NCBI RefSeq assembly: GCF_028728065.1
Contig: NZ_CP117811.1
Coordinates: 1,302,001 to 1,366,000 of the forward strand
DNA: 64,000 nucleotides
Direction: 5' to 3'
DNA from: Lentisphaera profundi
GTDB lineage: Bacteria > Verrucomicrobiota > Lentisphaeria > Lentisphaerales > Lentisphaeraceae
A program made the position numbers and the translations under genes. Below the pieces are notes generated by a model that was not told where the DNA came from, searched no databases, and saw only the letters and a program-made list of their open reading frames with translations. Shown in pieces: positions 16,402 through 21,195 of the stretch (position 1 is the stretch's first letter; the number at the start of each line of letters is the position of its first letter).

Positions 16402-16993
16402 CCTTACATTTAGACGAACTCAAAATCAGGGTGCTTTACTTCATTAATTCACCCAAACAGAAAACTTAAAAAAACGTCTCTTTGCTTTTCTTCCATCCAT
16501 ACTGAGAGTTTTTTCGCATGAATCTTTAAGCTTTCTAATGGTCGTACTTTTGTGGTGAACATCTAAAATAATTTTATCTAATTGATTCTTAATGGCTTAC
16601 GATAAAACAGGCTTATCTACTCTGCTTTATCAATAAAAATGAAAGCTCATGATTGACTCTATTAATTTCCATTAAAATAATAAGCTGTCTAGTCTCTTCA
16701 TAGAAAGTAAATAAAGAAGAAAGTCCATTTCATTTTAGAGAATTAAGAACTTAACTAGCAACTAAAGGTCTTTAGCTCGTTTAATGGGTCATTGTGAAAA
16801 AAATCAATGTGGCGGTTTTTAGTGACAGTGTGTGATTTCTTATTTATAGATGTATCAAATCTGTGAAAAATCATTAATCGCGCGAGTTATGTAAGTTACT
16901 AACAGTTTGAATACCAAATACTTATGTATTTTTATTATTCTTTGGCCTGATCTTTTCTGTTTTGTTAATTCAATAATAAACAGGAGATACAAA
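16402..16993. other. AT-rich intergenic region ending in duplicated leader (copy 1)
   Basis: This is 592 bases without a convincing gene. It separates the - strand ParB-like gene from the + strand exosortase locus and must hold divergent promoters. From about 16905 it matches the stretch at 18678-18760, sharing AAATACTTATGTAT, a GCCT block and TCAATAATAAA before a GGAGATA ribosome-binding site. Nothing else is recognisable. Confidence 0.6.
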
Positions 16994-17025
16994 ATGAAAC
17001 TCAGTGAAACAGCAATTTTAAATTC
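16905..17025 (+). repeat. Duplicated leader plus start of small ORF, copy 1
   Basis: The segment shares with 18678-18795 an ordered set of blocks: AACNGTTT, AAATACTTATGTAT, a T-rich stretch with GCCT, TCAATAATAAA, GGAGATA, and an ATG whose first codons read M-x-x-S-E. The conserved upstream half looks like a promoter or operator region, and the conserved downstream half includes ribosome-binding site and start codon. It is a degenerate direct duplication spanning about 1.77 kb. Confidence 0.6.
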
Positions 17026-17128
17026 GACTTTTGATATAGATAGCAAAAAATTTAAGCGGAAACCTCTACTCAATAAAATATCTTATTTGGCATTCAAAAT
17101 GGGCTGGCTTAGCAGTAGAACTTTTTAA
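16994..17128 (+). CDS. Small ORF (44 aa) at the head of the exosortase locus
   Basis: The ATG has a good ribosome-binding site (CAGGAGATA, 5-8 bases upstream). The product begins MKLSETAILNSTF and is lysine-rich in the middle (SKKFKRKPLLNK), with a hydrophobic-aromatic end (YLAFKMGWL). I recognise no family. A second, shorter ORF at 18761 has the same leader and a related N-terminus (M-N-I-S-E), which suggests that this frame is or was translated. It could be a leader or regulatory peptide. Confidence 0.45.
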   Translation: MKLSETAILNSTFDIDSKKFKRKPLLNKISYLAFKMGWLSSRTF

Positions 17129-17144
17129 TTTAAGGAGCTTTAAA

Positions 17145-17357
17145 ATGAAATCTTATGATACCAGTGTTGTGTTCATGGATAATAGAGTTGAGAAAGCTAA
17201 TGATAAGCTAAGTAGAAAGCGCATTTTAGCTAAAGATTGTTGCTTGTGTAATGATCACTGGATTCACTCAACATCCCATCCCTTTTTTCGAATACTCAAT
17301 AGGCTTTTTCATCCTTCTACTTATTATTGTCAGTGTGAGAATAATAAGCAATCTTAA
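17145..17357 (+). CDS. Small Cys/His-containing ORF (70 aa)
   Basis: It starts 16 bases after the 44-aa ORF, with a strong ribosome-binding site (AAGGAG, 8 bases before the ATG). The C-terminal half has CCLCNDHW and YYCQCE, a possible metal-binding arrangement. The same DNA in another frame (17251-17379) encodes a clean membrane-spanning peptide, so one frame may be a frameshifted continuation of the other. No family is recognised. Confidence 0.4.
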   Translation: MKSYDTSVVFMDNRVEKANDKLSRKRILAKDCCLCNDHWIHSTSHPFFRILNRLFHPSTYYCQCENNKQS

Positions 17358-17379
17358 TGCCTGTAAAAAAGTTTTATAA
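17251..17379 (+). CDS. Possible overlapping 42-aa membrane peptide
   Basis: An alternative frame inside the 70-aa ORF runs from ATG 17251 to TAA 17377-17379. It has a short head (MITGFTQHPIPFFEY), one long hydrophobic helix (SIGFFILLLIIVSV) and a basic tail ending NACKKVL. It stops 3 bases before the ATG of the 205-aa membrane protein. The Pro-hydrophobic-basic order loosely recalls a sorting tail. It may instead be the true end of a frameshifted gene beginning at 17145. Confidence 0.25.
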   Translation: MITGFTQHPIPFFEYSIGFFILLLIIVSVRIISNLNACKKVL

Positions 17380-17382
17380 AAT

Positions 17383-18000
17383 ATGTCTATGAATGGATTA
17401 CTTTCAGCTGAAATACTCTTTAAATGGAAATTACATGTGGGTGATCCCGACTTATGGAGTTGGCTCATTACTTTTGCCTATTTTATCTGTATTGGGATAA
17501 GTTTTTATACTTTGAACAAGGCAAAAAAATCTAAGCTTAGTAAACCGCTCATTATTCAAAGGTCGTGTATTTACATACTCCTTTTTTTAGGATTTAATAA
17601 ACAACTAGACCTCCAAGTTTTACTCAATGATTACGCGGCATATCTCATCGATTTTTTTAATATCAGAGCTTATAAATACACTATTATAATTATAGCATTT
17701 ATTTTAGTTCATCTCATTTTGAGCTATATCCTCAGTCGTATCATCACGAAGCATAAGACTCTACCTTTCTTCAATACTATTTTAATCCTTGCTTATTCCT
17801 TATTATTCATTTATATTTCTCTGAAAATCGGGGTGATTTATAAGGGAGATTATATTTCTAGATTAAGGATTATCGGCCATAAAGACTTTTTGAAAATCCT
17901 CGAGAGTCTCAGTCTAATCATGATATTTTATGGCCAATGGAAACTTTTAAAATCGTGTTCTCTAGCACCTCATGAGTATCAGTCCACTGGAGTAGGGTGA
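17383..18000 (+). CDS. Multi-spanning membrane protein (205 aa)
   Basis: Five or so hydrophobic helices are visible, at roughly residues 24-43, 58-76, 100-120, 128-150 and 172-188. The stretch FLGFNKQLDLQVLL after helix 2 is a distinctive motif that I associate with uncharacterised inner-membrane proteins often found beside exopolysaccharide or exosortase genes. That association is from memory and not shown here. DPDLWSW near the N-terminus is another likely family marker. The coding region is very AT-rich. It sits three bases after the overlapping peptide frame and ahead of the exosortase substrate, so it is probably an accessory component of that locus. Confidence 0.6.
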   Translation: MSMNGLLSAEILFKWKLHVGDPDLWSWLITFAYFICIGISFYTLNKAKKSKLSKPLIIQRSCIYILLFLGFNKQLDLQVLLNDYAAYLIDFFNIRAYKYTIIIIAFILVHLILSYILSRIITKHKTLPFFNTILILAYSLLFIYISLKIGVIYKGDYISRLRIIGHKDFLKILESLSLIMIFYGQWKLLKSCSLAPHEYQSTGVG

Positions 18001-18677
18001 CTTCTTCTCCAAGCCAAACTTTTTTAATAGGCTCATCTCAAGCTGTAAATAGTCTAATTTTCCCCGATTACCGCCGGACTTGAAGGGAAGTGGACGGAGT
18101 CACAATACTACAAATAAAAGATAGTTTTTCACCTTCTCGGTAATCCATATTTTAAATAACTTTGTTCTTAACCACAGATCTAGCAGATAGAACAGATAAA
18201 AATAAATAAGGCCTCTGTCCTCAACTCTTTTAGCTAAATCCCCCCCCGCAAGCTAGCAAATCTGAATAATCTGTGGTTTAAGTTTTTTCTTTGTTCCTAG
18301 CATCAGCCGATTTGGAGGAAGCAGGGCGAACGATCTCAGTTCCGCATGAGCGTCAAGTTAGGAATAATGTTCCGTCAACTCAAACACCTCGGTTCTTTTC
18401 TTTAAGGTGGAATCGTACTTTCTATAAAGCGTTCTTTTAAGTCTCTAATTCATTAAAAGTAAAGAATTATGCCCGCCGAAAGATAATGGATCTTATAAAA
18501 AATTATAGAGCGCTATGGCATGCTTAAAGAATTCATATACTTGGCTCTTAGATAGGTACAAATCTCCAAAAAATTTGATAGGTCCCTACCAAATCATACC
18601 AAGTTCCACATTTTTAATTGTATGAAATTGGTGAATTTATTGATATCTATAAATAAAATGATTTCATAAACTGTTTC

Positions 18678-18795
18678 ATTCAAAATACTTATGTATATTT
18701 CTATTGTTTTAGCCTAGCTTTTTCTTACATCTTTTTATCAATAATAAAGGAGATAGAAAAATGAATATTAGTGAAAAGCCATTTATACGCTCAGC
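18678..18795 (+). repeat. Duplicated leader plus start of small ORF, copy 2
   Basis: It matches 16905-17025 in ordered blocks, including AAATACTTATGTAT, GCCTAGC, TCAATAATAAA and GGAGATA. In this copy the ORF that follows closes after 22 codons. The leader is therefore better conserved than the peptide it precedes. Confidence 0.6.
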
Positions 18796-18829
18796 TATTT
18801 ACATTAGAATACGATATAAATTATTTTAG
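18761..18829 (+). CDS. Truncated small ORF (22 aa) behind leader copy 2
   Basis: It begins MNISEKPFIRSAIY, ends at TAG 18827-18829, and has a strong GGAGATA ribosome-binding site. The N-terminus resembles the 44-aa ORF at 16994 (M-x-x-S-E pattern). It is either a decayed duplicate or a short leader peptide controlling the substrate gene 100 bases downstream. Confidence 0.3.
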   Translation: MNISEKPFIRSAIYIRIRYKLF

Positions 18830-18928
18830 TTGAAATGTATTCTAAATGATATGAGTAATACACACAACAGCTAATAATAAAAGTACCATATATAGATTTA
18901 TAATAAATGTAAAAATAGAGAAAATATA

Positions 18929-19753
18929 ATGAAAATTCCACATGAACTTATAAAGGTATTGCTATTTATTACCTTCTTGTTTGTTCAACAAGTGAGTGCA
19001 CAATCAACCTTAGTAACAATTACTGAAGACTCATCAGCTACCTCTAGCTCTTTGAGTAACACGAGTGAATTCAACTTCAATAATTTGACAAATGGCTTGA
19101 ATAATAATGTTTCATGGGATGGAGTAGGTTCATTCGATAAGTTATTTGTTTCAAATGCAAATGTTTGGGGTGGAGCAGTAGACGATCAAACAGGCCAAGC
19201 CTCGAAATTCTCTTGGCAAGGCAATAATTGGACACCCGTCAGTACCTTAAGTCTTAATCAAAAAAGCTCATATTTTGGTTTCTGGTGGTCGGCAGGTGAT
19301 AAAAACAATCAGTTATCATTTTATAATGAAGATGAGCTCGTTGCCAGATACACAACTGAATCTATGTTTGGAAACTTAAATTTAAATCAAGATTACTATG
19401 GGAACCCACTCACAGGTGGTAATGGTGGTGAACCCTACGCTTTTATTAATTTTTTCGGTGATGCTGAAACTTCATGGGACAAGATTGAACTCACACAAAA
19501 TGGTGGTGGGGGATTTGAATCCGATAACTACACCACGCGTGTAGAAAGCTTTAATCCGGAAACTGATAGTCAAGAGTCATTGGGGAATATAATAGCAGAA
19601 GTATCAGGTACAGAAACAACAAACGTTGATACTCCGTCAGAAGATTGGGCTTGGGCCTTTGAAGAAAATGCTCCAGGCGCCCCAGTACCACCTTTTTTAG
19701 CTCTCGTTATTTTTGCTGCCGCCGCTGTTCTTAAAACTAAAATTGCCAGTTAA
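18929..19753 (+). CDS. Secreted protein with PEP-CTERM-like sorting tail (PGAPVPPF variant)
   Basis: This 274-aa protein has a signal peptide (about 1-24, VSAQ cut) and a Ser/Thr-rich head. A globular part contains YFGFWWSAGDKNNQLSFYN and GEPYAFINFFGD, blocks reminiscent of known exosortase-dependent surface proteins. The tail has the tripartite form of a sorting signal: PGAPVPPF at 249-256, a hydrophobic helix LALVIFAAAAVL, then K-x-K near the end. It lacks the usual PEP or VPDSG motif. The exosortase gene follows 14 bases downstream, so the pair is almost certainly enzyme and substrate. Confidence 0.8.
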   Translation: MKIPHELIKVLLFITFLFVQQVSAQSTLVTITEDSSATSSSLSNTSEFNFNNLTNGLNNNVSWDGVGSFDKLFVSNANVWGGAVDDQTGQASKFSWQGNNWTPVSTLSLNQKSSYFGFWWSAGDKNNQLSFYNEDELVARYTTESMFGNLNLNQDYYGNPLTGGNGGEPYAFINFFGDAETSWDKIELTQNGGGGFESDNYTTRVESFNPETDSQESLGNIIAEVSGTETTNVDTPSEDWAWAFEENAPGAPVPPFLALVIFAAAAVLKTKIAS

Positions 19754-19767
19754 CATAGGCTACTAAG

Positions 19768-21195
19768 ATGCCGCAGCTGGATAGTAATACCAAGAATACT
19801 CCTTCACTATTAAAGGGGCTCGTGCCATTATTAATATTTTCGTTTTTGGCTTCACAAGATTATGTTGTAGACATTTACGGTGCAATTTGTAAGCCTGTAG
19901 CATTATTTTGCTTAAATTTAGCTAGTTTATCCACCGCAGATCATGGCGTCTACTTCACTGTAAATCAACTCACAATTCCATGGACTAGGGATTGTGCAGG
20001 TATGAATTTGTTACTTGTTTTATTAGCCGTGTATACATGGATGAATCGAGATGTAGAGCAAAATTCAAAATACTTCTGGCGCTTGGCCTGTATTATACCC
20101 GCTGCAATAGCCTCCAATGTTTTGCGTGTACTCACTCTAGTGGGCTATCGTTATTTCGTTTACCCTGAAGTCGAATCACCGCAACTCCATTACTTTTTTG
20201 GTTTGTTCTGGCTTATTCCATTTGCTCTACTTGCCATTCCTAGAAATACTGAGCGATCAAAAAAATCTCTATTTTTTGAATTGCTACATATCTCCACAGT
20301 CATTGCTTTACTTGCGCCGCTGTTAAACATAAGCTATCACTGGCTTACTGCCTTGGCTGCACTTCTTTATCTTCTAAATAGTAATTTCACGAATAATTTT
20401 CATAAATATCACATCCGCTTGCTCATATTATGGTTTTTTGTAGCACTAATCATTATCTGGATAGGTATAGAATCGCTTTGGCTACCTTGGCTTTTAACTT
20501 GTCCTCTCACAGTTAACCTGAACTGGCTTCGTAGTCCGTCCGGAATTATATGCCTATGCGTCTCATGTCCACTATTTGTTCTTATACCTGGTGCAAACAT
20601 ATGGGGATTAGGCATTTTAGCGTTTTCCGTATTAACTTGGTATAAGCAAAAGATATTAAAATCAAAAACCCCTTTGGTGTGTTTAAATAGAACTTGGGAA
20701 CGTTCCTTAACAGCATGTACCGCACCATTACTATTTCTACCTTTTCTCGCTAGTATTATTTTTAACGTAAACATAAATCACTTACAACCCCCTGCTGATG
20801 TAAAGCAAAGAGTCCTTCAAGGAATGGGATATGAATTGAGACTTGAAGGTCAATCACCTGAACTTGGCTTACTGTGGTATGATCCACAAGGAAGTGATCG
20901 ACATCATGCAATAGAAGTATGTTTACAATATCGTGGAATTCATCTAAAAGAATCAAATATCCCTAATGTAAAAACTGATGGCCAACGATGGTTTAGGGAG
21001 TTTTTTATTGTGCGTGAAAATCTACTCGATAATCATCGTGATTATCTTTGGCATACCTTTGGCTTCCGCCAAGATCCGGGAATTCACATTATAATTGTTA
21101 GTGAAGAGGAAAACTTTTCAGCAGAAAATTTTGCAGAAAAATCTCAAAAAACAGCAGATAAACTATTTCAAAAATTATTTGGACCTGCAGTATAA
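19768..21195 (+). CDS. Exosortase/archaeosortase family transpeptidase with C-terminal periplasmic domain
   Basis: This 475-aa integral membrane protein has all three catalytic signatures of the family: Cys76 in WTRDCAGMN, Arg120 in SNVLRVLTLVGYRYF, and His141 in SPQLHYFFGLFW. Several more helices follow (to about residue 330). A soluble C-terminal domain (about 335-475) contains HHAIEVCLQYRGIHLKES and recalls the EpsI-like extensions of some exosortases. Exosortases cut tripartite C-terminal tails and attach the protein to a surface carrier. The only candidate substrate in the window is directly upstream. Confidence 0.88.
   Translation: MPQLDSNTKNTPSLLKGLVPLLIFSFLASQDYVVDIYGAICKPVALFCLNLASLSTADHGVYFTVNQLTIPWTRDCAGMNLLLVLLAVYTWMNRDVEQNSKYFWRLACIIPAAIASNVLRVLTLVGYRYFVYPEVESPQLHYFFGLFWLIPFALLAIPRNTERSKKSLFFELLHISTVIALLAPLLNISYHWLTALAALLYLLNSNFTNNFHKYHIRLLILWFFVALIIIWIGIESLWLPWLLTCPLTVNLNWLRSPSGIICLCVSCPLFVLIPGANIWGLGILAFSVLTWYKQKILKSKTPLVCLNRTWERSLTACTAPLLFLPFLASIIFNVNINHLQPPADVKQRVLQGMGYELRLEGQSPELGLLWYDPQGSDRHHAIEVCLQYRGIHLKESNIPNVKTDGQRWFREFFIVRENLLDNHRDYLWHTFGFRQDPGIHIIIVSEEENFSAENFAEKSQKTADKLFQKLFGPAV

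Follow-up and report, generated by a model that had tools for sequence, protein, structure and literature searches.

Several described sorting systems bear comparison with the locus considered here. In the exosortase A/PEP-CTERM system a polytopic enzyme is paired with targets that end in a tripartite tail, and the EpsH proteins share six invariant residues arranged in the motifs C-x-G, N-x-x-R and H-x-x-x-G (Haft 2006, PMC1569441). In Nostoc punctiforme, the source of the cyanoexosortase B/Npun_F0296 pairing, Npun_F0296 is itself PEP-CTERM-tailed, in a genome with 35 PEP-CTERM proteins. Dedicated rhombosortase/GlyGly-CTERM pairs (Haft 2011) have a single target gene adjacent to the sorting enzyme, an unrelated rhomboid serine protease, and single rhombosortase targets tend to adjoin their enzyme (PMC3237569). 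The closest system is present in NCBIfam (release 20, June 2026), where exosortase Z (XrtZ, NF050190), the PGAP-CTERM tail (NF050189) and the Npun_F0296 passenger domain (NF050191) each have a model. The literature searched yielded no paper describing exosortase Z or PGAP-CTERM, nor any biochemical demonstration that XrtZ cleaves or transfers a target.

The window, the whole 64-kb stretch of DNA that was analysed, comes from the two-contig genome (G000) of a marine Lentisphaera. On its + strand a gene for a secreted protein (18929-19753) is followed, 14 bases after its stop codon, by an exosortase gene (19768-21195), and with the family cut-offs applied all three parts score above those of the corresponding NCBIfam models. 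The first-pass annotation had taken the tail to be an unassigned motif, a view that does not survive the finding that tail and enzyme are PGAP-CTERM and exosortase Z. Because both parts are already named in a public protein-family library, the pair is a known system, and since enzyme, tail and passenger already have models, no new class is opened; the pair in the window has the same enzyme, tail and passenger families as the catalogued system and does not differ from it. Its general plan, a tripartite tail and a probably polytopic enzyme with the three EpsH motifs, is that of exosortase A/PEP-CTERM, from which the XrtZ system is distinguished by PGAPxPP in place of PEP, by its few substrates and by the adjacency of target and enzyme genes. 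The target shares its passenger domain family with the Nostoc protein, and the arrangement of a single target gene beside its enzyme is that of the rhombosortase pairs.

The substrate and the enzyme

NCBIfam profile matches assign the substrate, a secreted surface protein of 274 residues, to the Npun_F0296 family. Its probable Sec signal peptide, recognised by eye, is MKIPHELIKVLLFITFLFVQQVSA, with Q as the first residue after the predicted cut (18929-19000, + strand), and the passenger domain (residues 37-202, 19037-19534) matches NF050191 at 154.8 bits against a cut-off of 29. The protein ends in NAPGAPVPPFLALVIFAAAAVLKTKIAS. The sorting tail (19667-19741) comprises the PGAPVPP motif (19673-19692), a hydrophobic helix and a K-T-K end, so that the PGAPVPPF-helix-KTK ending first described for this protein is indeed present; it matches PGAP-CTERM at 32.1 bits (cut-off 25; residues 247-271), and its assignment draws on profile, alignment and shuffles alike. 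The signal-peptide-like start and the KTK end expected of a PGAP-CTERM protein can both be read by eye. Across the 64-kb window the PGAPxPP codon pattern turns up a single time, and 100 shuffles did not produce it; the substrate gives no match to PEP-CTERM (TIGR02595, cut-off 16 bits). An alignment of 29 substrates shows no invariant columns other than P249, P252 and P254, A251 being almost constant; PGAP-CTERM is matched by 26 of the 29 and Npun_F0296 by 19 of the 29, and the passengers are of at least four unrelated types, conservation being confined to the P-x-A-P-x-P tail. A scan for promoter and terminator sites around the substrate/XrtZ pair gave counts no higher than those in shuffles.

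XrtZ, of 475 residues, scores 623.2 bits against NF050190 (cut-off 475, residues 15-469), 33.3 bits against PF09721 in Pfam (cut-off 25.7) and 34.2 bits against TIGR04178 in NCBIfam (cut-off 23). Its catalytic motifs read D75-C76-A-G78, N117-V-L-R120 and H141-Y-F-F-G145, and XrtZ carries the six-residue signature of the EpsH superfamily, since C76, G78, N117, R120, H141 and G145 are all invariant across 29 XrtZ-family sequences (29/29). The codons of the putative nucleophile Cys76, of Arg120 and of His141 lie at 19993-19995, 20125-20127 and 20188-20190 (+ strand), which bears out, in coordinates and residue numbers, the early observation that an exosortase with this Cys/Arg/His set lies directly 3' of the secreted protein. 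An AlphaFold2 model built from the 29 sequences (mean pLDDT 87.9) predicts numerous long helices, and the residues C76, R120 and H141 fall in or at consecutive ones; comparison of the model with the PDB gave no match at E <= 0.001, and a sequence search found no convincing relative of known structure. The C-terminal 135 residues (20788-21192) form a soluble-looking domain in which R378, H380, C385, R389, G390, G438 and H440 are invariant. This domain occupies the position of the EpsI domain in some exosortases. Homology to EpsI, suggested by the likeness by eye of RHHxxxVC to HTPEYC, was not borne out: profile comparison gave E = 0.47, and the NCBIfam search found no EpsI (TIGR02914) match in XrtZ.

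Pairing of XrtZ and PGAP-CTERM across genomes

It is well supported that XrtZ and the PGAP-CTERM tail form a dedicated pair, as the first-pass annotation had proposed, and the support comes from co-occurrence, gene neighbourhood, conservation of the tail and a natural exchange of tails. Profile searches, on which the genome-wide tail counts rest, find XrtZ and PGAP-CTERM in the same five of 388 genomes of the phylum (three Lentisphaera, G217 and G324), a positive outcome for the proposed search for the motif alongside this exosortase clade, and the two genes are adjacent in all five. The chance of drawing an identical five is about 1 in 7 x 10^10 if genomes are independent, and about 1 in 1.3 million when counted by genus (3 of 198 each), both figures being made too strong by relatedness. 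The tail stands beside XrtZ in each of the three Lentisphaera genomes, where the pair sits in three different gene contexts, one per species, yet has been kept together. A wider scan of genome contigs located 34 XrtZ loci, nearly all in Verrucomicrobiota. A gene with a P-G/A-A-P-type tail precedes XrtZ at 30 of the 31 loci with upstream DNA (directly in 23, with one gene between in 7), the sole exception being L121; L129, L131 and L134, which are without upstream DNA, were left out of this count. The tails are weak at L124 (HGAPAPP) and L125 (PGSPEPW), and among distant loci that fall below the XrtZ cut-off (L078 at 309 bits, L124 at 390, L125 at 401) the tail or the gene order varies.

Within the genome of the window there are three exosortases, one PGAP-CTERM protein and a single PEP-CTERM match (C2:252566), which adjoins a different exosortase at C2:251777; the many PEP-CTERM proteins that might have been served by the same enzyme are thus not seen. 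One enzyme with one adjacent target makes a small, tractable system for asking what exosortases cut and attach. In the sister Lentisphaera genome G002 a single XrtZ is accompanied by six PGAP-CTERM proteins, of which two are tandem neighbours of the enzyme and four are encoded elsewhere, so having only one substrate is no general rule; the suggestion of one enzyme for one substrate holds in the genome of the window and fails as a property of the system.

Proposed mechanism and alternative readings

Very probably the pair is an exosortase Z/PGAP-CTERM system, in which XrtZ would cut the PGAP-tailed substrate and hand the product to an envelope or exopolysaccharide acceptor. The substrate would be exported by Sec and its signal peptide removed, after which the C-terminal helix would hold it in the inner membrane, its KTK end lying on the cytoplasmic side. 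On the periplasmic face, XrtZ would then recognise the motif P-G-A-P-x-P-P, and Cys76, aided by Arg120 and His141, would cut at or near it, the cut substrate being released or transferred to the acceptor as a surface protein. We infer cleavage, thioester chemistry and transfer by XrtZ by analogy with the exosortase family. Attachment to the surface or to exopolysaccharide is put forward more tentatively, with support from glycosyltransferase and Wzy-type genes that lie near XrtZ in some Verrucomicrobiia and not in Lentisphaera, where no exopolysaccharide-like genes were seen flanking the pair. That XrtZ is instead a protease that cuts the tail for release only, with no transfer, is rather unlikely: exosortase targets have been proposed, among other outcomes, to be released from the cell (PMC12188702) and no acceptor is known, but, as an argument by analogy, the Cys/Arg/His set resembles that of the transpeptidase sortases (PMC1569441). 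There is a small chance of a more elaborate arrangement, either a branch of XrtZ with a third component, the probably TPR-like lipoprotein gene found between substrate and enzyme (as in Haloferula luteola), or a two-centre XrtZ in which the C-terminal Cys/His set (R378, H380, C385, R389) could act in transfer.

The specificity of the pair could be questioned on the ground that the PGAP tail might be just a form of PEP-CTERM peculiar to this lineage, which general exosortases would process, leaving XrtZ redundant. The two tails do share a motif-helix-basic plan, and every genome with XrtZ encodes other exosortases, but this account is very improbable in view of how the tails are distributed. 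PEP-CTERM matches number 45 in G217 and 38 in G324, and each of these genomes encodes two further strong exosortases, yet each has exactly one PGAP protein, and that one adjoins XrtZ; nor is there an above-cut-off PGAP-CTERM in any of the 383 genomes of the phylum without XrtZ. The passenger also changes its tail with the enzyme. A profile search finds the Npun_F0296 passenger in 10 of the 388 genomes, with a PGAP tail in all five that have XrtZ and with a PEP-CTERM tail (for example VPEPSSSALFAGLVGLMAFRRRR) in all five that do not (G188, G207, G263, G269 and G272), the latter encoding other exosortases. The tail therefore follows the enzyme rather than the passenger, and the pair offers a clean example of an exosortase recognising its own tail. 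A dedicated XrtZ/PGAP-CTERM pair might nonetheless have had further parts, and the first-pass annotation had nominated as possible accessories a 205-residue membrane protein (17383-18000, + strand) and the tiny open reading frames ahead of it, a 44-residue peptide (16994-17128) and a Cys-rich peptide of 70 residues (17145-17357), all of which are probably genes. All share a strand and fall within about 1 kb, and part of the leader of this group recurs at 18678-18761, immediately before the substrate, but such a four-part system is exceedingly improbable. The three frames (16994-18000) are a separate three-gene module, because in Lentisphaera marina (G001) the same module is found away from XrtZ, on a different contig, with a relative of the 205-residue protein (G001:C2:760914, 50% identity) preceded by 44- and 70-residue frames of identical lengths (L097:1528-2477). 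Other relatives of the 205-residue protein occur in G002 (C15) and, as a paralogue, elsewhere in the genome of the window (G000:C1:1693679), none of them beside XrtZ, and no relative was found in G217 or G324, both of which have XrtZ.

Origin of the pair in Lentisphaera

The maximum-likelihood tree places the three XrtZ sequences from Lentisphaera with that of Rubritalea marina (100/100), nested among sequences from Verrucomicrobiia. By profile search XrtZ is absent from the other searched genomes of the Lentisphaera family. Taken together, the placement in the tree and this absence suggest that Lentisphaera acquired the XrtZ/PGAP-CTERM pair by transfer.

Sequences ahead of the XrtZ pair

Upstream of the PGAP substrate and the exosortase XrtZ lies a module of three genes (window 16994-18000) encoding a 44-aa basic peptide, a 70-aa Cys-rich peptide with the pattern C-x-x-C ... 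C-x-C, and a 205-aa membrane protein. The window's 70-aa and 205-aa proteins gave zero matches in Pfam and NCBIfam scans. The module is kept in Lentisphaera marina (L097:1528-2477), where the genes stand in the same order and the ORFs differ little in length. Its leader (window 16911-16993) recurs with 73-75% identity at 18678-18761, roughly 170 bases upstream of the PGAP substrate, and this second copy carries a truncated version of the small ORF; together, the repeat and the truncated ORF may be a relic of the event that inserted the XrtZ pair.

Possible additional partners at XrtZ loci

At six loci (L122, L123, L125, L126, L128 and L133) one extra gene separates the substrate from XrtZ, and a further member of the same family is present at L124. 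The products, each about 345 aa, form one homologous family (alignment A7) for which the members scanned had no significant Pfam or NCBIfam match; several carry a lipobox, and the family is possibly an analogue of the TPR lipoprotein PrsT. The passenger of one PGAP protein of a sister Lentisphaera (L090:4044-4856), encoded far from XrtZ, is not Npun_F0296 and recurs adjoining XrtZ in two Verrucomicrobiales MAGs (L110:397-1311 and L112:107-898).

XrtZ-like variants and other exosortases

Another genome of the phylum that encodes XrtZ also has a second, XrtZ-like exosortase (L078:8370-10747), which scores 309 bits against the XrtZ cut-off of 475 and adjoins its own PAAPAPSVILGLLL-tailed protein; the two are a candidate separate subfamily. 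An XrtZ-like locus, L125, lies on a contig binned to a Pseudomonadales MAG, a placement that may reflect either transfer or mis-binning.

Besides XrtZ, the window's genome encodes two exosortases, each with its own neighbouring target and both below the cut-off of every named subfamily. At L079:5742-9134 (C2:251777 region) the target, adjoining CreD, is an XrtN-system-VIT-like protein of 870 aa (VPEPETWALIII); at L080:5140-10370 (C2:101270 region) it is a choice-of-anchor-L protein (APAGAPEPEFYLLIII), separated from the exosortase by a PrsT-like TPR gene. The two sister Lentisphaera species have a further system (L082:3175-9438 and L085:3014-9284); its exosortase, which is not one of the three detected in the window's genome, is adjoined by two LVPE-tailed proteins (tail mostly LVPEPEE).
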